Virus record (IMG/VR): IMGVR_UViG_3300031227_000494
Span: 1-21,896 of that record
Length of the DNA: 21,896 nt
Origin: a virus
Strand: one strand, 5' to 3'
Positions 1,776 through 17,435 of the stretch are shown piece after piece (position 1 is the first letter of the stretch; each line of letters opens with the position of its first letter). A program made the translations under genes and the position numbers. The notes under the pieces are model-generated. The model ran no database searches and was not told where the DNA came from. It was given only the letters and a program-made list of their open reading frames with translations.

Positions 1776-1870
1776 ATTAAAGTCTTAAGCCTATGCAGAT
1801 TTAAGCCTTTTATTTTTTTAACGTTATAATTACAACCACTTACAAAATCACTGTTTTTTACTGAAATCAT
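1772..1870 (-). CDS. Micro-ORF bridging terL and the next gene
   Basis: This 32-residue frame begins MISVKNSDFVSGC and ends LHRLKTLI. It exactly fills the gap after the large terminase gene: its ATG overlaps the terminase TGA (ATGA), and its TGA overlaps the next ATG (ATGA). The product is basic and has no recognisable domain. The double stop/start overlap is the main reason to call it. It may serve mainly to carry ribosomes across the gap. Confidence 0.55.
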   Translation of the reverse strand: MISVKNSDFVSGCNYNVKKIKGLNLHRLKTLI

Positions 1871-4131
1871 GATAAATCCATGCCTTTTATAAATGTTTTG
1901 TACGCACCTTCGTGAGAATACCTCAAAGCATCCATAATGTGGTTGTTTGCATCAATAATAATCGGCAAGATATTGTCCGTATGTGGATCTTTCTTATATT
2001 TATAGTGTATAAACTCGCTGATTGTCTCAACACACCGAGGGTCTATCACAACATCAAATCCTTTTATATACTCAATACCGTCTTGTATGCTGCCTTTTCC
2101 CTTTTTAGATCCTTTGATATGGAAGCCTTCGTCTTTAACAAAGTCTATCGTATCCGGTCTTGCACTATCCCCAATCAAGGGCCATTGCCTTGAACCAGGA
2201 ACCGTATCAATAAAAGCAGCTATATCAACAGTCTTAACACCTTTCCCCCATGCTTCATAATCAATATACATAGTCTCGTCTTGAATCCATGACCTGATTA
2301 CAGCCATTGGGTCTGCTGCGAACCCCCAATCAACACCATATTTTAAGATTGCATCCTTCGGAGGTTTCGGTACTTCTTCAATTCTCCAACATCCGTGCAT
2401 AACCTGTTCGTCACTCTGCTGGACTGTCTGGCCTTCCCAAACGTGGAGATATTTATCAAAGTCTTTTGTCTTGCAGAACTCCATTTCTTCTCTTAACACG
2501 TCGGGGAACCACGGGTTATCGTAATATTGAACATCAATAACGCAAGATCGTGGAGGCTTAATCTCGTCTGAAAACATTGCGTGAACTGGATCGTCATCGA
2601 ATCTTGGATTGTATGAGAACCAAATTTCTGAACCTTCTTGGCGAATCGTAGGAATTAATATGTCCAAAGATATTTGCGAACAAGTGTGTGCCTCTTCTAC
2701 CCATGCGAAGTCTACCCCTTCTGTTGACTTTATACCGTCTGGGTCAGATCTAAGCCCAGCAAATATAAAATTAGAGCCTGTACGCTTGTGTCTTATCTCA
2801 CTTAGAGTCGATTCGAACTCCTCTTGTAACCCAAACTTTTCTATCTGATCGTCTAATATTCGTTTTACTGAATCTTTTATAGAACGCTGAATCTCACGAC
2901 AACATAAGATCCTATGCTTTCCGTTTCTTGCGTATCCTATTAGCGCTGCTGCAAATGACCTTGAATTATGGGTAACTGTACCATCTGACAAACAAAACAA
3001 ATTGTCACTGTCAACGCTAAAACCATAATATTTACCGATACCGGCTGGCTTTACAACTAAATACGATAATGTTTTATCTTTATTAGGTTTAACCCCATGA
3101 CAAATTTTTCTCTTTATTTTGCATGGTATTTTATCAACAAACCCATTTATTCCGACAGCCCAAGCCACACCCCTCACGCCATTATTTGTGCAAATTGTTG
3201 ATTTCTTTATTATAGTAGTTCTAAAACCTAAAGAATCGACAAGCCTTTTGACATCATATATAAGTTTTTTATTTGCTAAGGTTATCTTATAGCTACCCCT
3301 GCCATTATATGTGCCATCGGTATCTATTAAGCCTGCAAGTAGTTGCAATCTTACATTCTCGGAATTAGATATATAACTATCTGGGATATGCTTATTAAGT
3401 ATCAAATTATAAGATTTAAATAAATCTTTTAATGGGTTTTGACGCCCTTTATTACCTACTATCCTTGATAGTCCTATATTTTGTGCTTTACCTTTTTTTG
3501 TGCAATAAGTTGCTTTTACATTATAAGTTGGTGCTATTTTTTCTAAATAATTAACTATTTCTTTATCGGCTGTTGTGATTACCATATCCCTGCTATGCCC
3601 GTCTCCCAACCAAACCCCCAATAAATATGGGTCTATCGCTACTTTCTGCCCTTTAAACTTTATAAGCCCAGCCCTATACCCCCTGAAGTTTTCCTTCCAT
3701 CTATTTGATTGTTTTAAATATTCGGATACAGAAATATTGACGATACCTCCCCATCCAGGGTATCTACCGTTAGGACATTTATAATTACCAGATTTTAATT
3801 TTATGCCCCTATCTTTAGCGCAGGATTTAGATTTTTTTAAAGACAAGATATGGTCTTTGTTGACGGTATAGCTAATAGCAGACGTTTGATTTATTTCAAA
3901 CATTTCAGACTCACCAACCATCGTATCTATGACATTCCTCGGTCTAGAGTCTGGCCCCATAAGCTTATCACCGATTATGATATCTTCAACATTTTTTAGC
4001 TTACCGTTATACATTAACACTGGCGTACCAAGAGCAAAACACTTTGCACCACCACGACCGCCTCTAAATACTTTATATCTAAAGTCAGTCTGCAATAATG
4101 GTTCAAATATTTCAGGTATTTCAGCTTTTAT
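1867..4131 (-). CDS. terL: Terminase large subunit with intein in the P-loop
   Basis: This is the ATPase/nuclease motor that packages phage DNA. The precursor has 754 residues, of which 359 are an intein, leaving a 395-residue terminase. Counted from the in-frame TTG at 4095, the P-loop FRGGRGGAK|S is split at residues 18/378, and Walker B (FAWVEEA) is at 463-469. The nuclease acids are D589 (VDWGF), D643 (GDS) and D722 (MDALRY). I place the start at ATA 4131-4129, not at the TTG. The upstream codons read EIPEIFEPLL, typical of terminase N-termini. GGAG lies 8 bases before the ATA, which overlaps the small-subunit stop (ATAA). The fallback is the TTG at 4095, which has no clear Shine-Dalgarno. 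The product should be active only after intein splicing. Confidence 0.95.
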   Translation of the reverse strand: MKAEIPEIFEPLLQTDFRYKVFRGGRGGAKCFALGTPVLMYNGKLKNVEDIIIGDKLMGPDSRPRNVIDTMVGESEMFEINQTSAISYTVNKDHILSLKKSKSCAKDRGIKLKSGNYKCPNGRYPGWGGIVNISVSEYLKQSNRWKENFRGYRAGLIKFKGQKVAIDPYLLGVWLGDGHSRDMVITTADKEIVNYLEKIAPTYNVKATYCTKKGKAQNIGLSRIVGNKGRQNPLKDLFKSYNLILNKHIPDSYISNSENVRLQLLAGLIDTDGTYNGRGSYKITLANKKLIYDVKRLVDSLGFRTTIIKKSTICTNNGVRGVAWAVGINGFVDKIPCKIKRKICHGVKPNKDKTLSYLVVKPAGIGKYYGFSVDSDNLFCLSDGTVTHNSRSFAAALIGYARNGKHRILCCREIQRSIKDSVKRILDDQIEKFGLQEEFESTLSEIRHKRTGSNFIFAGLRSDPDGIKSTEGVDFAWVEEAHTCSQISLDILIPTIRQEGSEIWFSYNPRFDDDPVHAMFSDEIKPPRSCVIDVQYYDNPWFPDVLREEMEFCKTKDFDKYLHVWEGQTVQQSDEQVMHGCWRIEEVPKPPKDAILKYGVDWGFAADPMAVIRSWIQDETMYIDYEAWGKGVKTVDIAAFIDTVPGSRQWPLIGDSARPDTIDFVKDEGFHIKGSKKGKGSIQDGIEYIKGFDVVIDPRCVETISEFIHYKYKKDPHTDNILPIIIDANNHIMDALRYSHEGAYKTFIKGMDLS
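2965..4041 (-). mobile_element. Intein with LAGLIDADG homing endonuclease, inside terL
   Basis: The 359-residue protein intron starts with Cys in block A (CFALGTPVLMYNG) and has block B with its His at residue 64 (VNKDH). Two dodecapeptide endonuclease motifs are LLGVWLGDG at 140-148 and LLAGLIDTDG at 234-243. Block F is YYGFSVDSDNLFCL and block G is TVTHN, followed by Ser as the +1 nucleophile. All splicing residues are present and the frame is open, so it is probably active in splicing. Both LAGLIDADG motifs keep their acidic residue, so homing is plausible. It sits between Lys and Ser of the terminase P-loop, a conserved site of the kind favoured by inteins. Confidence 0.95.
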
Positions 4132-4517
4132 TTTTTAGTCTCCGATTTAACGAGAGTAAATTGTGTTACTTCTACAGGCCCACCACCTGGAGAAGATAGT
4201 GTGTTGTCTGACTTATCATGGTATCCATGCTTACCTAACACAAGCTTAACTATGTTAGAGTTAAATTTCCCTGTAAGCCCACTATTGATTAAGATTTGAT
4301 GTTGTTTTTGTAAAATTTCTTCTAATATCTCCGAAAATTCTTTCTTATCTTCATGCCCTGCCCAATCATACAGAGTTGATGACCTAATGCCACAAGCTAA
4401 TGCAACCCCTATGTGAGATGGTATAACGTCCCCTAATAATTCGAAATTATTAACATAATGGCGTGCCTTTTCAAGTATGCCTTTATTATATTTCGTTGGC
4501 CTCCCGACTTTAGCCAT
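4128..4517 (-). CDS. terS: Terminase small subunit (gp3-like DNA packaging protein)
   Basis: This 129-residue protein should recognise the packaging site and load DNA onto the large subunit. It starts MAKVGRPTKYNKGILEKA, followed by an HTH-like segment around residues 30-55 (VALACGIRSSTLYDWAGHED). A helical oligomerisation region and the sequence GLTGKFNSNIVKLVLGKHGY follow. This pattern matches the P22 gp3-type packaging family. A good site (AGAGG) lies before the ATG. Its stop overlaps the proposed ATA start of the large subunit, so the two are probably made in a coupled way. Confidence 0.9.
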   Translation of the reverse strand: MAKVGRPTKYNKGILEKARHYVNNFELLGDVIPSHIGVALACGIRSSTLYDWAGHEDKKEFSEILEEILQKQHQILINSGLTGKFNSNIVKLVLGKHGYHDKSDNTLSSPGGGPVEVTQFTLVKSETKK

Positions 4518-4526
4518 GATACCTCT

Positions 4527-4703
4527 CTATGCTTTAACCTTCAAAACGCTAAATTTGCCTACCTTGTTGAGTTGTAATGTTCCACTTTTTGTTGAATCTT
4601 TGCAACTTATTGCTTTTTCTATACTATTCCAAATAATTTGGTCAAAATTCTCTCTGTAATTATTATTAGCTACTCTTTGATTTGATTTTGATTTGATTGA
4701 CAT
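4527..4703 (-). CDS. Small basic protein upstream of terS
   Basis: The 58-residue frame begins MSIKSKSNQRVANNNY and ends FSVLKVKA. It stops 9 bases before the small-terminase ATG, and the AGAGG site of that gene lies in the gap. It overlaps the preceding small gene by 34 bases in another frame. The product is basic and soluble, with one helix likely (FDQIIWNSIEKAI). No family was recognised. Placement in the chain of overlapping genes supports it. Confidence 0.6.
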   Translation of the reverse strand: MSIKSKSNQRVANNNYRENFDQIIWNSIEKAISCKDSTKSGTLQLNKVGKFSVLKVKA

Positions 4704-4825
4704 TCTTTTATTCTTTCCCTTGCTGCTTTTAGATCTTTAGCATATTTTTTATCATCCCAATCCGGTTCGTCTCTTGCATATTCTTTTGCAGTTTTTGTAA
4801 CCGGTTCGTGCCTAAATATTAGCAT
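4670..4825 (-). CDS. Small charged helical protein
   Basis: The 51-residue frame begins MLIFRHEPVTKTAKEYARD and continues with a highly charged helix (WDDKKYAKDLKAARERIKEC). Its ATG overlaps the stop of the previous gene (TGATG), so coupling is likely. Codon use and the amphipathic helical pattern look real. The function is unknown. A DNA-packaging accessory role is only suggested by its place upstream of the terminase genes. Confidence 0.65.
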   Translation of the reverse strand: MLIFRHEPVTKTAKEYARDEPDWDDKKYAKDLKAARERIKECQSNQNQIKE

Positions 4826-5022
4826 CAGTATACTCTACCAGTGCTGTAACATCCACTTGTTGCACCAGGACTACTTTTACCCTTCGGTCTTATCACCTGT
4901 GACTCAATATAATCTATTTTTTTATTTAGTATTTGTATTTTACCACCTCTGTCTAAAAAAGATTTTATTGTTTCTTTTTCTTTCCCCCTGCTACTCTTTG
5001 TTTTGTGAGTCTCAAAGTTCAT
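4825..5022 (-). CDS. First gene of the packaging operon, unknown function
   Basis: I start this at ATG 5022, giving 65 residues beginning MNFETHKTKSSRGKEKETIK. An in-frame TTG at 5034 is an alternative, and neither has a clear Shine-Dalgarno. The segment TIKSFLDRGGKIQIL resembles short phage proteins that carry an LxRGGKI motif, but I cannot assign a function. The C-terminus is rich in Gly and Ser. It is the first gene after the leader that carries the promoter at 5185-5213 and the palindrome at 5079-5102. Confidence 0.65.
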   Translation of the reverse strand: MNFETHKTKSSRGKEKETIKSFLDRGGKIQILNKKIDYIESQVIRPKGKSSPGATSGCYSTGRVY

Positions 5023-5078
5023 TAATAATGTCAACTATATCAGATATTTAGCTACAGCACAAACAAAAATAGCCCTCA

Positions 5079-5102
5079 TCGGTATACTCAATTGTATACC
5101 GA
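5079..5102. promoter_or_regulatory. Perfect inverted repeat in the packaging-operon leader
   Basis: Nine-base perfect arms (TCGGTATAC and GTATACCGA) flank a 6-base centre (TCAATT). The site lies about 75 bases downstream of the likely transcription start for the leftward operon and about 55 bases before its first gene. It could be an operator for a dimeric repressor, an RNA hairpin in the leader, or a recognition site near terS. No T-run follows, so a terminator is unlikely. Confidence 0.55.
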
Positions 5103-5184
5103 CTTGGACTATCGACGAAGGAAGAGAAAAATGAAAAAATCAAACTTACCATCCTACATAAATTGTGTTCACTACTAAAATTAA

Positions 5185-5213
5185 TATATACAAAAATATC
5201 GTGTTTATGTCAA
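5185..5213 (-). promoter_or_regulatory. Sigma70 promoter of the packaging operon
   Basis: On the minus strand, -35 TTGACA (5213-5208), a 17-base spacer and -10 TATATA (5190-5185) form a near-consensus promoter. It points left into the terminase operon, with a leader of about 145-155 bases before the first start codon. The boxes lie just past the end of the HTH gene, in an otherwise gene-free 200-base gap. Confidence 0.75.
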
Positions 5214-5228
5214 TAGCAAACATTTTAA

Positions 5229-5450
5229 TTATTCGATTCCAACCACTTTTCCCGAAGGTAAGATACGACTAAAATTACTCGTTGCAACGGTTATTATTTC
5301 TTGCCGCCAGCGCTGGATGCCTTGCCTGATTGCAGCCGGGTTCTTTCTATATAATATCTCAGCGATTTCTTTTAACGTAAACCCATTTTCATACATTAAC
5401 ACCGCAGTTCGTCGTTCTAGAGTACTATATTTCCCTGATCTGTGTCCCAT
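5229..5450 (-). CDS. Small helix-turn-helix protein with repeat-derived tail
   Basis: This 73-residue protein has a resolvase/sigma-like HTH at about residues 10-48 (ERRTAVLMYENGFTLKEIAE, then NPAAIRQGIQRWRQ). It is probably a small DNA-binding regulator. A strong AGGAGG site precedes the ATG. After RWRQE the frame runs straight through a copy of the intergenic repeat core, giving EIITVATS, and ends 19 residues later (SGKVVGIE). The tail looks acquired: one base fewer in the run before the core would stop the protein at RWRQE, as in neighbouring genes. It is the last gene before the packaging promoter. Confidence 0.75.
   Translation of the reverse strand: MGHRSGKYSTLERRTAVLMYENGFTLKEIAEILYRKNPAAIRQGIQRWRQEIITVATSNFSRILPSGKVVGIE
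5280..5300 (-). repeat. Repeat core inside an ORF
   Basis: The minus strand carries the core AATAATAACCGTTGCAACG of the repeat family in the coding frame of the HTH gene. The right half of the element (hairpin arm and T-rich part) is missing here. Confidence 0.7.
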
Positions 5451-5460
5451 TTTGTCCTCC

Positions 5461-5490
5461 TAATGTTTTGTGTTAAGTGGCAGGCGGTTA
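5461..5490 (-). repeat. Degenerate copy of the intergenic repeat
   Basis: This stretch lies between the Cys-rich gene and the HTH gene. On the minus strand it reads TAACCGCCTGCCAC, then TTAACACAAAACATTA before AGGAGG. It keeps the stop codon, a shortened core and the right arm, but has lost the hairpin. Confidence 0.5.
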
Positions 5491-5724
5491 TTCTGGACAA
5501 TGTTTACAAGAATAACCATATCCATCACTGCCACATACTTTACAAGTAGAAATCTCTTTAGCCTGTCCAGCTTCAACAACTTGATTAGGAGGCTGTTTGA
5601 TAGGGCAATAAGCTTCATTGCAGTAGACAGGTCCATTCTCATACGCACAATAGCGTAAGCCGTCATCCATATAATGACTGGGACAATCGTGAAATTTAAC
5701 GGTAATATTCCAAGTTTTTAACAT
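5488..5724 (-). CDS. Cys-rich zinc-ribbon-like protein
   Basis: Starting at ATG 5724, which follows a strong AGGAGG, this gives 78 residues beginning MLKTWNITVKFHDCP. Cysteines occur in pairs: HDCPSHY, RYCAYENG, VYCNEAYCPIK, STCKVCGSDGYGYSCKHCPE. The last group (CxxC-x8-CxxC) is a typical zinc ribbon. The longer frame to 5760 is rejected because it begins inside the upstream hairpin repeat. A role in binding nucleic acid or protein is plausible but unproven. Confidence 0.75.
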   Translation of the reverse strand: MLKTWNITVKFHDCPSHYMDDGLRYCAYENGPVYCNEAYCPIKQPPNQVVEAGQAKEISTCKVCGSDGYGYSCKHCPE

Positions 5725-5742
5725 ACTAATAGTCCTCCTAAT

Positions 5743-5780
5743 AATGCAGATCAGCGGCAAGGTACGCCGCCCGTTGCATT
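5743..5780 (-). repeat. Intergenic hairpin repeat
   Basis: This element has outer arms AATGCA/TGCATT and an inner stem GCGGC/GCCGC around a GTACCTT loop. It keeps the GCAACGG part of the core. It lies between a small membrane-protein gene and the AGGAGG of the next gene. Confidence 0.7.
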
Positions 5781-5794
5781 AGCTGATTATAAAA

Positions 5795-5935
5795 TTACGC
5801 GCCTAAAGTTAGTATTAAGTCCATAATAAGGGTGCACAGGGCGCCACCAATGTATAATTGCCAATCTTTTTTGCATAGCTTTAAAATAATATATGTCCAA
5901 ACTGTTGAAAATATAAGCCCTACTAAATTTTCCAT
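5795..5935 (-). CDS. Small membrane protein, two hydrophobic segments
   Basis: The 46-residue frame begins MENLVGLIFSTVWTYIIL and contains a second hydrophobic stretch (LYIGGALCTLIMDLILTLG). A charged hinge (KLCKKDWQ) separates the two, which suggests a helical hairpin. An excellent site (TTGGAGG) precedes the ATG, so I consider it a real gene. It is flanked on both sides by parts of the repeat family. The function is unknown. A holin-like or immunity role cannot be decided from sequence. Confidence 0.7.
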   Translation of the reverse strand: MENLVGLIFSTVWTYIILKLCKKDWQLYIGGALCTLIMDLILTLGA

Positions 5936-5957
5936 TTTTCCTCCAAGTAATTTTTAT

Positions 5958-5974
5958 AATATTAAGTTCACCGG
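5958..5974 (-). repeat. Right half of the intergenic repeat
   Basis: On the minus strand CCGGTGAACTTAATATT matches the right arm of the copy at 6504-6566 (CGGTGAACTTA). The TGA within it is the stop codon of the zinc-ribbon gene at 5968. Its left half lies inside that gene at 6054-6077. Confidence 0.65.
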
Positions 5975-6198
5975 CGCTCTATTACGTCGGAGCAAGTAGG
6001 GCACATTAATTGTGGTAGTTCATAATCGCCACAATTTTTGCACTGGAAAGCGTCCGTTGCAACGGTTATTATTTTTTCGGTATTAGTTACCATTTTCCAT
6101 TCCTCATCACACGCCATGCAATGATAAATTTCTTCATCACGCTTTACTGTTGCACAGTTGCAGATAGGGCAAGTCATTCTCTTATATAGTTTTGACAT
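5968..6198 (-). CDS. Double zinc-ribbon protein spanning a repeat core
   Basis: This 76-residue protein begins MSKLYKRMTCPICNCATV. The first ribbon is CPIC...CMAC (residues 10-32) and the second is CKNC...CPTC (about 54-69). Between them lies EKIITVATDA, which is the repeat core translated in frame. With one A fewer before the core the protein would end after NTEK, exactly as the neighbouring gene ends after HEK. The second ribbon is therefore probably an appended piece between the left and right halves of a repeat. A GGAGG site precedes the ATG. Nucleic-acid binding is plausible. Confidence 0.75.
   Translation of the reverse strand: MSKLYKRMTCPICNCATVKRDEEIYHCMACDEEWKMVTNTEKIITVATDAFQCKNCGDYELPQLMCPTCSDVIERR
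6054..6077 (-). repeat. Repeat core inside the zinc-ribbon ORF
   Basis: The minus strand reads AATAATAACCGTTGCAACGG, preceded by a longer A run than in sister copies. It is translated as IITVAT within the 5968-6198 gene. Confidence 0.7.
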
Positions 6199-6213
6199 CG
6201 TTCCTCCATTCTA

Positions 6214-6275
6214 AATAAAAATAATATTTTAATTCATCAGCAGCTTTGCTGCCTGTTGCAATGGTTATTATTTTT
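6214..6275 (-). repeat. Complete intergenic hairpin repeat
   Basis: Directly at the stop codon of the 6268 gene the minus strand reads AATAATAACCATTGCAACA. A hairpin GCAGC-AAA-GCTGC follows, then TGATGAATTAAAATATTATT and the ribosome binding site of the next gene. This is one of the two most complete copies. Confidence 0.8.
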
Positions 6276-6492
6276 CGTGGTCGAATAAATCTCTTGGTAG
6301 GACATGATATCTAACCAAAACCCCTTCAACAACGGCTCCTGGTGGGGCGGCATCTTTAGCTTCTTGGTAAGAAGGGAATGCCATAATATCAGTTTCTTTT
6401 CTTGTCCAACCACCCACCCTCCAATTGTCAGGGTAGTATCCATACTTCCTTTTAAACGTGTAGTACAAAGGGTTTTGTGGCAATGGTGACAT
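6268..6492 (-). CDS. Small Pro/aromatic-rich protein of unknown function
   Basis: The ATG at 6492 follows TTTAGGAGG, giving 74 residues that begin MSPLPQNPLYYTFKRKYGYY. The longer frame to 6555 is rejected because its first 21 codons translate the repeat. The sequence is basic and aromatic at the N-terminus, then YQEAKDAAPPGAVVEGVLVR and an acidic end (DLFDHEK). No family was recognised. Complete repeat copies flank it on both sides, so it looks like a single-gene cassette. Confidence 0.7.
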   Translation of the reverse strand: MSPLPQNPLYYTFKRKYGYYPDNWRVGGWTRKETDIMAFPSYQEAKDAAPPGAVVEGVLVRYHVLPRDLFDHEK

Positions 6493-6503
6493 TTTACCTC
6501 CTA

Positions 6504-6566
6504 AAGAAAAATAATGTCCTAAGTTCACCGACGAGCGTAGCGATGCTCGTTGCAACGGTTATTATA
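6504..6566 (-). repeat. Complete intergenic hairpin repeat
   Basis: The minus strand reads TATAATAACCGTTGCAACG, starting at the stop codon of the 6562 gene. Then comes a hairpin with arms ACGAGC/GCTCGT and loop ATCGCTAC, then CGGTGAACTTAGGACATTA, a T-rich stretch and AGGAGG. It is a good type copy. Confidence 0.85.
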
Positions 6567-6747
6567 CCTGCTTAAACCAACCATGTTTAATAGACGAATC
6601 ATTTATTTCTTCATCAAACTCAATTTCATCAAAATTGTCATTCTGTTCTAAACTAACAACAAGCTTACTCGTACTGGCTGCGCTCCTCAAGATGGTTGCC
6701 TTGTGTTTTACGAGTAACGTTTCTAACTCCTTTAGAAATTCATTCAT
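6562..6747 (-). CDS. Small acidic protein of unknown function
   Basis: The 61-residue protein begins MNEFLKELETLLVKHKATIL. It has an amphipathic N-terminal helix and a strongly acidic middle (DNFDEIEFDEEINDSS). AAGGAAG lies before the ATG. Its stop codon forms the first bases of a complete hairpin repeat. Acidic short phage proteins can mimic DNA, but nothing here proves that. Confidence 0.65.
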   Translation of the reverse strand: MNEFLKELETLLVKHKATILRSAASTSKLVVSLEQNDNFDEIEFDEEINDSSIKHGWFKQV

Positions 6748-6839
6748 TTTTCACTTCCTTTTCGTTAAGGTATGATAAGTAGTTATGTAGATCTGTGTAA
6801 CTTGTAAATTGTAATGTTATCCAGACCAGCATGTTATAT
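6748..6839. other. Short gap without recognised features
   Basis: These 92 bases between two small leftward genes contain no convincing promoter, hairpin or reading frame, apart from the AAGGAAG ribosome binding site at the left edge. Confidence 0.5.
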
Positions 6840-6986
6840 TTAATCAATTCTTTTTTTGCCAAAATAAACAGCCAAAGCCATTAAAGATACACCGATCATA
6901 TTAATATGATTAGCGTTTTCATTCATTGCCATTATTAATCCTGACATTCCGGTTAAAACATATAACAAATTAATTACTTTTTCCAT
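6840..6986 (-). CDS. Small membrane protein, two hydrophobic segments
   Basis: The 48-residue frame begins MEKVINLLYVLTGMSGLIMA. A second hydrophobic stretch (MIGVSLMALAVYFG) follows, and the protein ends in a basic tail (KKRID). AAAGGAAA lies before the ATG. It falls between the Rha gene (17 bases away) and the acidic small protein. The helical-hairpin layout resembles the 46-residue membrane protein at 5795, though the sequences are not closely alike. The function is unknown. Confidence 0.65.
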   Translation of the reverse strand: MEKVINLLYVLTGMSGLIMAMNENANHINMIGVSLMALAVYFGKKRID

Positions 6987-7003
6987 TTTGGCATTTCCTT
7001 TTA

Positions 7004-7690
7004 TTATTTAAGTCTTAGAACTGAGCCGAAAGAAAGTATATCTTCTTTCACAGAATTATAAATATCTTTATAATGTCTACCAATAGTCATATATTTTTTT
7101 AAACTTTTTTTAGCTAATCTTTCAGCAAGCAACAGTTCAGATATTTCATAAAGATTCATTGTGTCACGCAGTTTCGGCTTACTCTGTGCCATTAATCCAA
7201 GAGCTTTATATGTGGCATTTGTTATATGCTTGTAATAAAACTTAGCAGATTTGCTTCCTTGGTTTGTGGCATAATCAACAAATTCTTTTATAACATCTGT
7301 TTCCTCAAGTCTTGCAAGCTTGCCCTGTTCTCTTTGGATCAACCATTTAGGGTCCGTTGCATTTTTGTCAGCAATCAAAATATGCTGTTCCATTGCATTA
7401 AATGCTGCAATAAATTTACCTTGCCACTGGCGAGCCTTTTTTGTATCGAATCTCATACCAAGAAGAATAAAACAATCACGATTTAATAAATACGCTTTAT
7501 ACTTTTTACCTCTATATTCTCTATCCTCAATTTCAAATTTAGGGTGAAAGCCTGTCACTCTAAAATCATCTAATTTCGGGATTAATGTTTTCATTGCTTG
7601 AGAGACTTTGGCGTGTTGCATCCCAAATTTTCTTGCGATTACTCCTGTGTCACAATAAATCTCATTTCTTTTAAATTCTACTAATTCCAT
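7004..7690 (-). CDS. Rha-family phage regulatory protein
   Basis: This 228-residue protein has an N-terminal Rha domain. Residues about 10-35 resemble its DNA-binding start (YCDTGVIARKFGMQHAKVSQ), followed by the hallmark YLLNRDCFILLGMRFDTKKA and KFIAAFNAMEQ (about 67-102). The C-terminal half is charged and helical (KLARLEETDVIKEFVDYATN) and may bind a partner or DNA. Rha proteins are known as phage regulators whose exact role is unsettled. In phage P22-related systems they affect growth in hosts lacking IHF. It has its own consensus promoter at 7730-7758. Confidence 0.9.
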   Translation of the reverse strand: MELVEFKRNEIYCDTGVIARKFGMQHAKVSQAMKTLIPKLDDFRVTGFHPKFEIEDREYRGKKYKAYLLNRDCFILLGMRFDTKKARQWQGKFIAAFNAMEQHILIADKNATDPKWLIQREQGKLARLEETDVIKEFVDYATNQGSKSAKFYYKHITNATYKALGLMAQSKPKLRDTMNLYEISELLLAERLAKKSLKKYMTIGRHYKDIYNSVKEDILSFGSVLRLK

Positions 7691-7729
7691 TTTGCACCTT
7701 ACTATTTATGGTTAATATTTACAGTACAT

Positions 7730-7758
7730 AATATAACTCTTAAATAGTATGATGTCAA
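7730..7758 (-). promoter_or_regulatory. Sigma70 promoter for the Rha gene
   Basis: On the minus strand, -35 TTGACA (7758-7753), a 17-base spacer and -10 TATATT (7735-7730) lie about 40 bases before the Rha start codon. It suggests that the Rha and accessory genes form a separate leftward unit from the replication operon. Confidence 0.75.
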
Positions 7759-7771
7759 CACATTATTTCAA

Positions 7772-8158
7772 TTAAGTTTCGATAAAATTCATATCAGGAT
7801 TCTGTTTCAATAAAAGTTTTTTCTTTATCAAATAAACATCAGTCTTGGTCGCATTTCCACCTTTCACATCTTCAATAATCAATCTACCTTCTTGAGTATA
7901 TCTAAAATCAGCATAATAATTAATCGGGTAGTAAGTCTTACCCATATGTTTAAAACCGTCCTGTAGCTTAAATTTTGGCTGTAATTCAAGGTTTTTGATA
8001 AACCCACAATGCTCCTGTAATTTTAATTCTTTATATCGCTTACTTTCCTTGATCGAATCGAATTTTAGTCCATCTACAACAGTCTTTTTGTTGTTGTATT
8101 TCTGCTTTTTTTGTTTCGGATATAAATTTTTATATGCTTTTGGTAAATAAACCATCAT
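7772..8158 (-). CDS. DUF1064 family protein (nuclease-like)
   Basis: The 128-residue protein matches DUF1064. KYNNKKTVVDGLKFDSIKES is at about 20-39, then a KRYKELKLQEHCGFIKNLEL helix, QPKFKLQDGF, the strand YADFRY and IIEDVKGG. The pattern E...D-x(n)-ExK, here FDSIKES and ADFRY...IEDVKG, resembles the PD-(D/E)XK nuclease fold. Members occur in phage replication and recombination regions, and a role in resolving or trimming DNA is an inference. Its start overlaps the HNH gene stop (ATGA-type overlap). Confidence 0.88.
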   Translation of the reverse strand: MMVYLPKAYKNLYPKQKKQKYNNKKTVVDGLKFDSIKESKRYKELKLQEHCGFIKNLELQPKFKLQDGFKHMGKTYYPINYYADFRYTQEGRLIIEDVKGGNATKTDVYLIKKKLLLKQNPDMNFIET

Positions 8159-8391
8159 ATTCCTTTAATCTTTAAGTTACCTGAATGAATTTTAAAATGA
8201 CATTTTGTGCAAACTAAAGCTAAATTATCAAGATTATCGTTGCCAGAACTACCGAATGTTTTTATGTGATGGGCTGCCGATTCGTTTCTTTGTAACCATT
8301 TTCCACAACATTGACATAAATGGCTTTCTCTTTCACAAAGAGCGTCTACTCTGTCTTTCCATGCTTTGCTATTTCTTTTGAGTTTTTTCAT
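8155..8391 (-). CDS. HNH endonuclease-like protein
   Basis: The 78-residue protein has a complete compact HNH motif. Zinc ligands are C26/C29 (LCQCCG) and C61/C64 (CTKC). The catalytic AHH is at residues 40-42, with a central Asn in NDNLDNLALV and a final His in CHFKIH. In phages such proteins act in packaging next to terminase, or as homing or recombination nucleases. Here it sits in the replication operon, coupled to DUF1064 and to the upstream gene by 4-base overlaps, which favours replication or recombination. Confidence 0.9.
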   Translation of the reverse strand: MKKLKRNSKAWKDRVDALCERESHLCQCCGKWLQRNESAAHHIKTFGSSGNDNLDNLALVCTKCHFKIHSGNLKIKGI

Positions 8392-8738
8392 CTTATGTCC
8401 ATTTCGCTTTTAGCAACTGATAACAACGATCTGTAAGCGTCTAAATTAGCGTGGAGCCTTTTCACATTTTCCCTGCAAGCATGGAATATACCCTCCGCTT
8501 TTCGCATTTCGAACCTTTCGTCAGCTACTTTGCCTTTTACAATCGCAGGAATTAATGTAACAGACTGGCCCTGATCCTTTAAGTCAAGTATGCATATACT
8601 TTTAGCGACCAAATAATCCCTTTCTGTGCTTGCCATTTTTTCAGATAGCTCTTGGTATTTAGATAATGCAGTTTCAAGCTCTTTACATTTTTTAATATAT
8701 GCCAGCTTTAGTGTTTTTATCTCTTGGTAATCTTGCAT
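8388..8738 (-). CDS. Coiled-coil phage protein of unknown function
   Basis: The 116-residue protein begins MQDYQEIKTLKLAYIKKCKE and is a long helix followed by LIPAIVKGKVADERFEMRKA and a second helix ending SLLSVAKSEMDIR. This helix-short insert-helix plan, with a K/R-rich turn after 'VKGKVADERF', is common in small phage proteins next to replication genes. I cannot name a function. Its stop overlaps the HNH start (ATGA). Confidence 0.75.
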   Translation of the reverse strand: MQDYQEIKTLKLAYIKKCKELETALSKYQELSEKMASTERDYLVAKSICILDLKDQGQSVTLIPAIVKGKVADERFEMRKAEGIFHACRENVKRLHANLDAYRSLLSVAKSEMDIR

Positions 8739-8790
8739 ATTTACTCCCTATACTCACCACATTTCATTAATGAATCACCGTCTAACCGTC

Positions 8791-8955
8791 TTAGTTTTGT
8801 TTCCTCCCATACCACTGCCCAATTTCTGCAACCCTTTGAATAAATTGTTCTAAATTTTCAGTCCTGGTATCGTCTGAATCACACCAATATTCTGATAATT
8901 GGTCTATAAGTTCATTTGGTAATACATTTTTAGGTTTGAAATTTAATACATCCAT
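8791..8955 (-). CDS. Small acidic protein of unknown function
   Basis: The 54-residue frame begins MDVLNFKPKNVLPNELIDQL and contains SEYWCDSDDTRTENLEQFIQ. ACTGGAGG lies before the ATG and supports the call. Its 5' flank carries a half copy of the repeat family. A second frame overlapping its end (ending LMKCGEYRE) also looks protein-like but has no start signal. Confidence 0.65.
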   Translation of the reverse strand: MDVLNFKPKNVLPNELIDQLSEYWCDSDDTRTENLEQFIQRVAEIGQWYGRKQN

Positions 8956-8965
8956 TATTCCTCCA

Positions 8966-8987
8966 GTAGCATTGTTTTATTATTTTT
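8966..8987 (-). repeat. Left half of the intergenic repeat
   Basis: The minus strand reads AATAATAAAACAATGCTAC, close to the left arm of the 9517-9559 copy. It is joined straight to the GGAGG of the next gene, so the hairpin and right arm are missing. The stop codon of the 8980 gene is within it. Confidence 0.6.
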
Positions 8988-9195
8988 CTGGTTTGAAGTA
9001 ATAATCAAGGTGACTTTCCAAAACATCGAAGTCACTAAGCTCCAAATCAGCACACTGGTGACAAAGAGTTGGGGTGTCATAATCTTGGCTTTCCCATAAT
9101 TTGTCTGATGCATCAATAAACTGTTCTGGTGTGTCTATCTCAACGTCACCAATGTAAAAGCTTGCATTAGTGGTAATGTATACTGGTACTTTCAT
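8980..9195 (-). CDS. Small acidic protein with CxxC, unknown function
   Basis: I start this at ATG 9195, which follows AAAAAAGGAG, giving 71 residues from MKVPVYITTNASFYIGDVEI. The longer start at 9231 would translate the repeat right arm and is rejected. The protein is acidic, with one CHQC pair (about residues 45-48) and a C-terminal VLESHLDYYFKPEK. One CxxC alone is too little for a zinc-finger claim. The family was not recognised. Confidence 0.65.
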   Translation of the reverse strand: MKVPVYITTNASFYIGDVEIDTPEQFIDASDKLWESQDYDTPTLCHQCADLELSDFDVLESHLDYYFKPEK

Positions 9196-9204
9196 CGTCA
9201 CTCC

Positions 9205-9230
9205 TTTTTTAAAAATAATGTCGTAAATCA
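9205..9230 (-). repeat. Right half of the intergenic repeat
   Basis: Starting at the TGA of the 9228 gene, the minus strand reads TGATTTACGACATTATTTTT and then AAAAAAGGAG. It matches the right arm (GACATTATTTTT) of the 6504-6566 copy. Confidence 0.6.
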
Positions 9231-9506
9231 CTGGCTAAGAGCCCGTCCGCAATCGCAACAATATTTATGACTCGGGTGATTTATTTTGGTGTAATTACAA
9301 TAATAACTGCAAGGCTCTTTGTCCACGTGCATTGCAGTATTGGACGGCTGGTCATCAAGGGGGCAAAACTTTGGGAACCTTAACAGAGTGTCCGGTAATA
9401 TTTCCTGAGAAAAACCGCACCATTGCTTTCCAATATTTCCACCTGTCCTGATAATGTTACGTTCAGGACACGTTAAACAACTTGCTACATAGATAATTTT
9501 ATTCAT
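9228..9506 (-). CDS. Cys-rich zinc-binding protein
   Basis: Starting at ATG 9506 after GGAGCGG, this gives 92 residues beginning MNKIIYVASCLTCPERNII. Cysteines appear in CLTCPE, WCGF, FCPLDD, PCSYYCNY and YCCDCG. The final CSYYC...CCDCG looks like a zinc ribbon. It may be a small nucleic-acid- or protein-binding accessory protein. It carries a full hairpin repeat upstream and a repeat right arm at its stop, so it looks like another cassette-type gene. Confidence 0.7.
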   Translation of the reverse strand: MNKIIYVASCLTCPERNIIRTGGNIGKQWCGFSQEILPDTLLRFPKFCPLDDQPSNTAMHVDKEPCSYYCNYTKINHPSHKYCCDCGRALSQ

Positions 9507-9516
9507 AGTCCGCTCC

Positions 9517-9559
9517 AATATTAAGTTCTACGGCTCGCCCGTAGCAACGGTTTTATTAT
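9517..9559 (-). repeat. Complete intergenic hairpin repeat (variant B)
   Basis: The minus strand reads TAATAAAACCGTTGCTACGG, then a GCGAG loop, CCGTAG and AACTTAATATT. The stem CTACGG/CCGTAG can extend by GTT/AAC past a bulged G. The first 20 bases recur exactly on the plus strand at 16354-16373. Confidence 0.85.
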
Positions 9560-9595
9560 ATTAATTGTTTTAGGTTTTCTGCTAGTATTATTTTT

Positions 9596-13309: not shown

Positions 13310-13947
13310 TGGATAATTTAATTTACTGGAATAAAGTCTCAACACCACCACCAAATATGTTAAAAACAATAAAAGCTGGTCGGTTAAAAGGTATGTCTGA
13401 TATAAAACCACAGTGGAGATACCATATTATGACAGAAGTTTTTGGGCCGTGTGGTATTGGTTGGAAATACACTGTTACAAATAAATGGACTGAAAATGGT
13501 TCTGATAATCAAATTTTTGCATTTGCAGATATTGAGCTATATTTTTTACACGCTGGTGTTTGGTCTGAACCAATTCCGGGTCATGGTGGTAGTATGTTAG
13601 TCGCAAAAGAATCAAAAGGACCACATTCAAGTGATGAGGCTTTTAAAATGGCGATAACTGATGCACTTAGTACGGCAATGAAATTAATTGGTGTTGCATC
13701 TGATATTTATATGGGTAATTGGGATGGAACTAAATATATAAACAAGCCACCAGCTCCGCAAAAAGAAATAACAATAGGTGAAGAAAACGTTGCTTGGTTG
13801 GTTGGTTTCTGCAAAAGAAATAAAATAATAGATCCATCAACTAAAAAAGAGTTCCAATCTCATTATCAATTCAACCCATACGTTACTACTGAAAAAGAAT
13901 TTGGAGAGATAAGAAAGCAAATCGAGTCAGAATACAATGAGGCTTAA
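13309..13947 (+). CDS. Rad52/Sak-like single-strand annealing protein
   Basis: This 212-residue protein would coat and anneal single-stranded DNA during phage recombination. The core spans about 20-140: GRLKGMSDIKPQWRYHIMTE, then beta strands (WKYTVTNKW, IFAFADIELYF), then DEAFKMAITDALSTAMKLIG and VASDIYMGNWDGTKY. A helix-rich segment ending 'ALSTAMKLIGVASDIYMG' is typical of Rad52-superfamily phage annealing proteins, possibly Sak3 type. The subfamily is uncertain. The next gene encodes a YqaJ exonuclease, the usual partner. The C-terminal 50 residues are a charged helical tail that may bind that partner. Confidence 0.8.
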   Translation: MDNLIYWNKVSTPPPNMLKTIKAGRLKGMSDIKPQWRYHIMTEVFGPCGIGWKYTVTNKWTENGSDNQIFAFADIELYFLHAGVWSEPIPGHGGSMLVAKESKGPHSSDEAFKMAITDALSTAMKLIGVASDIYMGNWDGTKYINKPPAPQKEITIGEENVAWLVGFCKRNKIIDPSTKKEFQSHYQFNPYVTTEKEFGEIRKQIESEYNEA

Positions 13948-13948
13948 A

Positions 13949-14536
13949 ATGATATATGACTTCAGCCAATATAGCCCAGAATGGTGGAAAATAAGAGAAC
14001 AGAGGTTAACAGGCTCCCATGCTCAAGCTATTGGTGTTAACGGTAAAGGATTGAAAACATATACCCGTAAAATAATGTCAGAGTATTATTCTTCTGCTCA
14101 AATTGAAACATACTCAAACGATGATATGCGAAGAGGTCTTGAGCGTGAAGACAAAGCGGCAAGTGAATATAGTATTGAACACATGACAGTATTAAAAAAG
14201 GTCGGATTTGTTACGAGAGGGGATCATGTTGGAGTCAGCCCTGACAGACTTGCAGATGAAAATGGCTTGGTGGAAATAAAATGTCCTAAAGACTCAACAT
14301 ACCTTGATTTATTATTGGATAAAAAGATAGACACGAAATATATATGGCAAATGCAAATGCAGCTACTTATATGCGAGAAAGATTGGTGCGACTATGTTGT
14401 GTATAACCCAAACTTTGAAACACGCTTATTTGTGCAAAGAATCGAACCAGATGCTAAAAAGTTCAAGGCTTTGGAAGAAGGGATTGAGTCAGGAATTAAA
14501 ATGATAAAAGATATAGAAGAAAGGATGGCATTATGA
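13949..14536 (+). CDS. YqaJ-family recombination exonuclease
   Basis: The 195-residue nuclease is related to lambda exonuclease and should resect DNA ends for the annealing protein. From ATG 13949 (GAGG upstream) the motifs are WWKIREQRLTGS near the N-terminus, RGLEREDKAASEY with its Glu at 67, and the active site SPDRL...GLVEIKCP (D99, E109, K111). IWQMQMQLLI follows. The in-frame ATG at 13937 is an alternative that would overlap the upstream gene. All catalytic residues of the family are present, so it is probably active. Confidence 0.93.
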   Translation: MIYDFSQYSPEWWKIREQRLTGSHAQAIGVNGKGLKTYTRKIMSEYYSSAQIETYSNDDMRRGLEREDKAASEYSIEHMTVLKKVGFVTRGDHVGVSPDRLADENGLVEIKCPKDSTYLDLLLDKKIDTKYIWQMQMQLLICEKDWCDYVVYNPNFETRLFVQRIEPDAKKFKALEEGIESGIKMIKDIEERMAL

Positions 14537-16352: not shown

Positions 16353-16390
16353 TTAATAAAACCGTTGCTACGGACAAGCCGCTGAACTGC
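16353..16390 (+). repeat. Intergenic hairpin repeat, plus-strand copy
   Basis: Two bases after the SSB-like gene stop, TAATAAAACCGTTGCTACGG is identical to the minus-strand copy at 9517-9559. ACAAG, CCG and CTGAACTGC follow, a decayed right arm. As with the others, it sits between a stop codon and the next start, in the direction of transcription. Confidence 0.8.
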
Positions 16391-16403
16391 AAAGGGCACA
16401 GAT

Positions 16404-17435
16404 ATGATAAAATTAATACATGGTGACTGTTTAGAAAAAATGAAAGATATTGAATCTGGATCGGTTGATTTAATACTTACCGACTTGCCTTATGGTAATA
16501 TGAATACAGACGGTGGGCGTAAGATGGGAATTGATGGGTGGGATTTAGCAATAGAACCTGCGACTGTCCATGAAATATCAAACCGTATTTTAAGAAAAAA
16601 TGGAAAAATGATTTTGTTCGGACAAGAGCCTTATACCGGCAGATTAATAGACCAATCTGTTCCTAATCTACCCTTTAGTTATCGTGCTATATGGGAAAAG
16701 GACAATTTTGCAAATGCCTTGGGTACAAAGGTTAATATGGTTTCTTTTACCGAAGATGTCTTAATCTTTAGCAAGAGGCATCAGAAGCATGATTTTGAAG
16801 GTATGCACCCATTAAGAGAATACTTCAAATATATAATGATTTTTATAGGGCTAAACCTCAAGCAAATTAATAGCAGATTGGGACACAGGAGAGCCGAACA
16901 TACTTTTTATATAAATAGCACTCAATACGGATTATGCACTGAAAAAACATATCTGGAATTAATGGAAGTTTTCAGCATTGATGTGCTTTCCGATTTTAAA
17001 ACTTTCGGCGAGCTAAAAGAAATTGATACCGAATATAGACAAACCCTCCTAAAACAAATGAATGATCAATATCCAAGTATTTTTAACCTTTGGGAAGGCG
17101 GAAAATATAAATCAAACATACTCAAATATAAAAAAGATTACGATGGTTATCACCCAACACAAAAACCAGTTTTATTACTTGAAGATTTGATTAAAACTTT
17201 CAGCAATGAAAATAATTTGGTTGTTGATTTGACAATGGGTAGTGGCTCAACAATGGTAGCTTGCCAAAACACAAATAGGAATGGGATAGGCATAGAGCTT
17301 GACGAAAACTATTTCAATATAGCTAAACAGCGTTGTTGCATAAAATCCGCTAATAAGTTAATGCACCGGACGAGCCGGTGCATCAACACATTATTTCCGT
17401 ATTTTAAAAATAATACTAATAAACTCGCCCCATAA
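16404..17435 (+). CDS. DNA methyltransferase (beta-type motif order)
   Basis: The 343-residue enzyme has catalytic motif IV TDLPYG (26-31) first, then a target-recognition region of about 220 residues including LKQINSRLGHRRAEHTFYI. HPTQKP (250-255) and AdoMet motif I DLTMGSGST (275-283) with GIGIELD (294-300) follow. This order is the beta class of amino-methyltransferases, and DLPY fits N6-adenine or N4-cytosine. The conserved enzyme should end near NYFNIAKQR (302-310). The last 33 residues (from CCIKSANKL) are odd: they translate a hairpin and run 45 bases into the convergent gene, so the original stop is probably lost. Confidence 0.92.
   Translation: MIKLIHGDCLEKMKDIESGSVDLILTDLPYGNMNTDGGRKMGIDGWDLAIEPATVHEISNRILRKNGKMILFGQEPYTGRLIDQSVPNLPFSYRAIWEKDNFANALGTKVNMVSFTEDVLIFSKRHQKHDFEGMHPLREYFKYIMIFIGLNLKQINSRLGHRRAEHTFYINSTQYGLCTEKTYLELMEVFSIDVLSDFKTFGELKEIDTEYRQTLLKQMNDQYPSIFNLWEGGKYKSNILKYKKDYDGYHPTQKPVLLLEDLIKTFSNENNLVVDLTMGSGSTMVACQNTNRNGIGIELDENYFNIAKQRCCIKSANKLMHRTSRCINTLFPYFKNNTNKLAP
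17357..17387. terminator. Bidirectional hairpin between convergent operons
   Basis: ATGCACCGG and CCGGTGCAT form a perfect 9-base stem around ACGAG, and GTT/AAC extend it outward past one mismatch. It lies between the rightward recombination operon and the leftward tail/lysis operon. There is no strong T-run, so termination efficiency is uncertain. The ACGAG loop and GTT/AAC arms resemble the hairpin-repeat family. Confidence 0.6.

Follow-up and report, generated by a model that had tools for sequence, protein, structure and literature searches.

What do the hairpin repeats that separate the small genes of an uncultured phage do? The window analysed here, a 21,896-base record of an uncultured virus, carries on its minus strand nine full or partial copies of such a repeat, distributed between small genes over positions 5274-9564. 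The original prediction, made from the letters of the sequence, had counted at least nine copies on this strand, and its three complete examples (6504-6566, 6214-6275 and 9517-9559) read as described; however, the family is not confined to the minus strand, because two additional copies (16354-16397 and 17343-17397) bracket a DNA methyltransferase gene on the plus strand, and these too are oriented along transcription. We consider it likely that the repeats are attC-type recombination sites located at the 3' ends of small, mostly single-gene mobile phage cassettes.

Architecture of the repeats

A complete repeat opens with an outer arm whose last bases are AAT. After a spacer of 4-6 bases come GTT (or ATT, AAT), an unpaired G and an inner stem that is variable in both sequence and loop length. 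The opposite side complements the inner arms and finishes with AAC (or AAT, ATT); a second spacer and ATT close the repeat. This is the R''-L''-loop-L'-R' order of integron attC sites. One complete copy reads TATAAT AACC GTTgCA ACGAGC...GCTCGT CGG TGAAC TTAGGAC ATTATTTTT, and a class 1 integron attC read for comparison is GCATAAC ATGAA GTTgCAGCCG...CGGCTGAAC TTCGGC GTTAGAC. The arms match the L boxes of integron attC sites (GTTgCA...TGAAC), which supplies the counterpart that the original prediction could not name. In addition, 18 consecutive bases, CGGACAAGCCGCTGAACT, are common to the plus-strand site at 16354 and a canonical GTT-type attC of another viral contig, L051.

The inner stem is maintained by compensating changes. 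Among 13 distinct sites from the window, its relative L006 and two further viral contigs (L032 and L037), both sides of the L''/L' stem change in 7 of 8 pairs, and 83.7% of the L stem cells are paired, compared to 19-43% in slid controls; the unpaired G of the L stem, which corresponds to the extrahelical base of attC sites, is present in 13/13. Because MAFFT misaligned the full sites, covariation was counted on ungapped L boxes only and no third model was built. The covariation bears out the earlier suggestion that conserved flanks combined with a variable compensating stem reflect a selected structure. The repetition itself is also confirmed: a repeat search recovered the family as a 23-mer in 4 copies (D1), and AACCGTTGCNACG occurs 5 times in the record but never in the form of a reversed-pattern control. 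A structural finder for this architecture, tuned on the same sites, yields 4 matches in the window and 2 in L006, compared to 0.2 expected in Markov shuffles.

Complete minus-strand sites are 9515-9564, with a short loop (finder score 14.2), 6505-6569 (R'' TATAAT, GTTgCA...TGAAC, R' ATTATT; finder score 16.6) and 6217-6275, in which L'' ATT and L' AAT covary with the GTT/AAC of other sites. Two sites possess long loops and end the overlapping gene at the TGA of L': 9211-9347 (R'' CCGTCCAAT), whose loop lies inside coding sequence and which shows both own-start complementarity and covariation, and 5952-6077, whose loop encodes the zinc-ribbon C-terminus of the gene. The site at 5735-5798 has the R'' GTAATTTTATAAT, matching the start of its own cassette. 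The remainder are a degenerate site at 8951-8987 (R'' AAAAATAAT, arms truncated, as read from the sequence), a variant site at 5456-5496 (GCCACTTAACACAAAAC followed by ATTAGG) which forms the junction of a helix-turn-helix (HTH) cassette and at which homology to L006 begins exactly at 5464, and the 5' half of a site at 5274-5302, where in both L006 and a second relative, L007, a complete site and a methyltransferase cassette follow. On the plus strand, the site at 16354-16397 lies upstream of the methyltransferase gene, whereas that at 17343-17397 occupies the 3' end of this gene and shares 36 bp at 97% identity with positions 4906-4941 of L006, located after a different methyltransferase; because this site is nearly palindromic, the finder calls it on the minus strand.

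A copy had been expected to begin at a stop codon, which holds for part of the family only: the open reading frames (ORFs) 5968-6198, 5229-5450 and 9228-9506 continue through the 5' arm. Together with 16404-17435 and L006 3158-3430, these are the ORFs that cross a recombination site, and the sites concerned double as coding sequence. In two of the window genes and in L006 3158-3430, translation of the loop gives a Cys-rich C-terminus, and the TGA of L' serves as stop codon.

Small genes as cassettes

An integron cassette begins with bases that pair with its own terminal R'', since excision as a circle brings the two together. The same relationship is seen here in 12 of 15 cassettes, each composed of one small ORF and a 3' site in the same orientation. 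The mean own-end score is 5.5, compared to 1.7 for off-diagonal pairings (permutation p about 5e-6), and in 11 of 12 cases a cassette start pairs better with its own R'' than with the neighbouring one. By the same score, six class 1 integron cassettes reach 7.2 for their own ends and 2.3 for other pairings. Clear pairs outside the window are ATTAACAAAAATAC with GTATTTTGTTAAT in L006 and ATTATGCGGC with GCCGCATAAT in L037, where an AAT/ATT cassette shows 10-nt complementarity between its ends. Also in L037, within 7900-8450, the cassette start ATTAAAAATATCGCC pairs with the cassette's own end GGCGAATTTTTAAT. The complementarity that has been kept thus joins the two ends of one cassette, as in an excised circle, and not the two sides of a hairpin as transcribed. 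Judged by the sequence of their ends, the small genes behave as cassettes, and class 1 integron cassettes are alike in this respect. A generic search for end-complementary cassettes proved too noisy.

The cassettes that follow are on the minus strand. Those at 8979-9219 (71-aa protein, 8980-9195) and 6226-6515 (74-aa protein, 6268-6492) both start with ATTATTTTT and carry the R'' AAAAATAAT, and that at 5746-5960 (46-aa membrane protein, 5795-5935) pairs ATTATAAAAATTAC with GTAATTTTATAAT, a clear case in the window. A Cys-rich protein (9228-9506) is encoded by the cassette 9220-9519, found elsewhere in L006, an acidic 61-aa protein (6562-6747) by 6516-6776, and a 76-aa zinc-ribbon protein (5968-6198) by 5961-6225. 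Own-end complementarity was not seen in the cassettes 5465-5745 (78-aa Cys-rich protein, 5488-5724) and 5274-5464, which is shared with L006 and whose HTH protein ORF (5229-5450) crosses the site.

Turnover among close relatives

Comparison with relatives reveals gain and loss of single units. L006 is about 93% identical over the 4212-5254 region and, between the same flanks, contains different genes, each of which has sites of this kind at its borders. The HTH cassette is shared but has different neighbours, and identity starts exactly at the ATT of R' (7/22 positions to the left, 20/22 to the right); the ATTGGAGCGG cassette likewise shows an edge exactly at ATT (5/22 and 21/22). The breakpoints between the window and L006 thus fall at R', as expected of integron cassettes, and the view of the small genes as exchangeable cassettes is borne out, as is a difference among relatives in gene content between copies, which the original prediction had proposed to test. 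Most of L007 is identical in sequence to the window, but it has an additional methyltransferase cassette, about 1 kb of which is the same, base for base, in L006. Nearly identical pairs of sites enclose the N6_N4 DNA methyltransferase gene of the window (16404-17435, plus strand; Pfam PF01555, E 2e-29) and, in L006, an unrelated MT-A70 methyltransferase.

L006 additionally contains a gene-less mini-cassette (4104 to about 4180) and, amid short sites of the same array, one (2745-2861) that at about 130 bases is comparable in size to the attC sites of Vibrio. At 5254-5278 of the window, 23 unrelated bases replace about 865 bp with the methyltransferase cassette present in L007 (3157-4020) and L006 (4075-4938).

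The first cassette of the main array is immediately preceded by a 63-bp non-coding segment on the minus strand (6777-6839) that contains three TAAC motifs and one GTTA. It is identical in the window and L006 (63/63), compared to 128/147 (87%) for the preceding gene, and the identity ends at the cassette junction. Given that its position is that of attI in an integron, this segment may be an attI-like entry site.

The altered core and its occurrence

In all intact minus-strand sites, and also in L006 and L037, the core is AAT/ATT rather than AAC/GTT. Since AAT/ATT sites are found in L032 and L037, contigs of different phages unrelated to that of the window, the variant is not private to the latter. 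In L032, an AAC/GTT site is present upstream as well, and one cassette has GTT at its start and AAT at its end. Arrays of the canonical AAC/GTT type are present in other viral contigs (L051 and L061). Further AAT/ATT-edged hairpins, with unusual arms, are located at 7900-8450 of L037, a 44-kb phage contig. Exact-pattern matches in the viral contigs L009, L011, L012 and most of L033-L042 turned out to be coincidences inside genes.

Wider searches returned little. There was no match in Rfam at the gathering threshold, nor did BLASTN find any when the whole region was compared with 50,697 phages; BLASTN of one site against phages and plasmids gave chance-level matches only. When 84,980 species of bacteria and archaea were scanned for the pattern, a single chance-like match resulted, so that no host is indicated, and the relatives of the terminase and DnaB do not point to a single host either. 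In other Rha-bearing phage relatives, the structural finder detected no arrays.

Mechanism and alternative explanations

If the repeats are attC-type sites, one strand of each site would fold into a hairpin with R''/R' and L''/L' stems, the unpaired G and the variable loop. An IntI-type tyrosine recombinase would then cut at the R' box, and cassettes would be excised as circles, inserted and reordered, perhaps to the present day. Because the core AAT/ATT replaces AAC/GTT, the enzyme is probably a relative of IntI with altered core specificity, which either the host or a portion of the phage outside the sequenced record would supply.

Several observations weigh against this interpretation. AAC and GTT are the sole conserved bases of attC sites (PMC2727003) and are lacking here from R'' and R', respectively, and the secondary sites of IntI1 require GNT (PMC10127599). 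The repeats accordingly are classed as attC-like: their apparent mode of action is that of attC sites, but on the core feature they are not attC by definition. Against a covariance model built from 13 canonical attCs, scores are 18-67 bits for known sites and 22-23 bits for two sites of phage TJE1, whereas the best match in the window plus L006, the site at 6505-6569, is weak at 12 bits (E 0.43). With the core columns reset to AAT/ATT, this site again is the best match in the window and rises to 18.5 bits (E 0.089), which is still weak; of the 8 matches listed for the adapted model in the window plus L006, 6 are cassette junctions. Clusters of attC sites lacking integrases (CALINs) are defined by at least two close attC sites and no integrase; several of the present sites lie within 4 kb, but they do not pass the canonical attC model. 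Three of the 15 cassettes show no own-end complementarity, the L-box register and cassette edges were set by hand (two edges, of cassettes W4 (6516-6776) and A1, were taken from the window/L006 breakpoint), and the difference between the window and L007 at 5254-5278 does not break at R'. Finally, none of 13 virus records, all of them fragments, contains a tyrosine recombinase (PF00589) above the Pfam cut-off, and hence no intI gene of a complete integron was found among them; Pfam scans of the other main ORFs of the window detected no such enzyme. A search for IntI in viral contigs yielded 11 loci; roughly half resemble class 1, and AAT/ATT arrays accompany none of them.

The lack of an integrase above cut-off is also what would be expected if the repeats were decayed relics of integron cassettes acquired once, with the core drifted from GTT to ATT and the shuffling now carried out between conserved arms by homologous recombination through the RecE-like and Rad52-like proteins of the phage. 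The window does encode a RecE-type exonuclease (13937-14536) with a neighbouring recombination protein, the truncated sites (8951-8987 and 5274-5302) and the off-R' change at 5254-5278 fit decay, and so does the L032 cassette that starts with GTT and ends with AAT. Drift, however, would erode the R''/R' and L pairing, yet both are kept; the two sides of the core have changed together in all intact minus-strand sites, and a search for mixed AAC/ATT sites found none; and the edges of homology lie at ATT, outside rather than inside the conserved arms. We therefore regard this scenario as unlikely.

Decidedly less probable is a role as regulatory RNA hairpins acting in termination, processing or translational coupling within an operon, the analogy with T4-type stem-loop cassettes that had originally been drawn. 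It would account for the placement of all sites, which follow a stop codon, precede the next ribosome-binding site and are oriented along transcription, and the sites show modest folding (z about -2 for most of those tested, folded as DNA). A T4-type cassette would combine an early promoter with a terminator-like stem-loop; in this AT-rich region, promoter-like matches outnumber those in shuffles (32, compared to 17.9), and some overlap sites. No intrinsic terminator is predicted at the sites, however, and several of these lie inside coding sequence, with stops in L'. Moreover, a transcribed hairpin would join R'' to the start of the next gene, but the complementarity observed is with the start of the same gene, and the attC architecture would be left unexplained. 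Other hairpin-based DNA movers, such as IS200/IS605-type transposition or host XerCD recombination as in filamentous phages, act on folded single-stranded DNA, and the sites are indeed hairpins with conserved edges. Such a mover is nevertheless highly improbable here: scans of the window ORFs detected no transposase, the R'' arms vary widely apart from AAT (TCCAAT, GTTAAT, GCATAAT, CGAATAAT) and so provide no fixed Xer arm, and the L boxes match attC.

Other features of the window

The two groups of minus-strand cassettes are separated by an HNH endonuclease gene (8155-8391, minus strand). The large terminase subunit (1867-4095, minus strand) is split, immediately ahead of its Walker A motif, by an intein of the LAGLIDADG type with Hint and Hom_end domains; at the same locus of L006, the large subunit is largely different and the small subunit close. 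At 1645-1648, three relatives have about 280 bp more (1835-2114 in contig L008), and the window looks deleted inside a gene region.

Implications and comparison with known systems

The general phenomenon, integrase-less attC clusters in phages, is already known (PMC9892861). For the altered core, the turnover at this core between close relatives and the candidate attI-like site, no description was met in the papers located. That both sides of the core have changed together throughout an array, with genes turning over at precisely the altered base, suggests that specificity for the core is switchable. The integrases of integrons are believed to need a G/C pair where they cut, and the array would be a testable place to seek a new single-strand recombinase. 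It would also offer a direct reason why small phage genes, such as those for zinc-binding proteins and methyltransferases, are swapped as single units between close relatives. The reliance of standard searches on GTT suggests that phage cassettes are under-counted. A bolder possibility, which we hold only tentatively and consider less probable than not, is that some phages own an integron-like platform with a conserved attI-like entry site, shuffled ATT-core cassettes and an integrase lineage that differs from every described IntI; if so, GTT-anchored tools would have missed its sites.

T4-type stem-loop cassettes, which are thought to carry promoters and to act via the transcript, resemble the array in placing hairpins between small exchangeable phage genes; in the present array, by contrast, it is the ends of a DNA unit that are complementary to each other. 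The likeness to the attC sites and cassettes of class 1, Vibrio and other chromosomal integrons is far more detailed: the order R''-spacer-L''-loop-L'-spacer-R', the unpaired base in the L stem, a 5-base spacer in most sites, a variable loop, L boxes GTTgCA/TGAAC as in the VIM-2 and IMP-4 attCs, single small genes in the same orientation, cassette starts complementary to their own R'', and gene-less cassettes. In contrast to integrons, the phage core is AAT/ATT, several ORFs cross the site and stop at the TGA of L', and the cassettes are found at three places of the segment, with no integrase gene found. The closest counterparts are the phage CALINs described by Qi et al. (2023; PMC9892861), who reported 17 integrase-less attC clusters with methyltransferase cassettes and showed that IntI1 used 5 of 6 tested phage sites. 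These clusters likewise combine small genes of unknown function with DNA methyltransferases, and the mini-cassette and methyltransferase cassettes seen here are as in the known clusters; the cores there are GTT whereas here they are ATT, and the present array adds turnover between close relatives and a candidate attI-like site.

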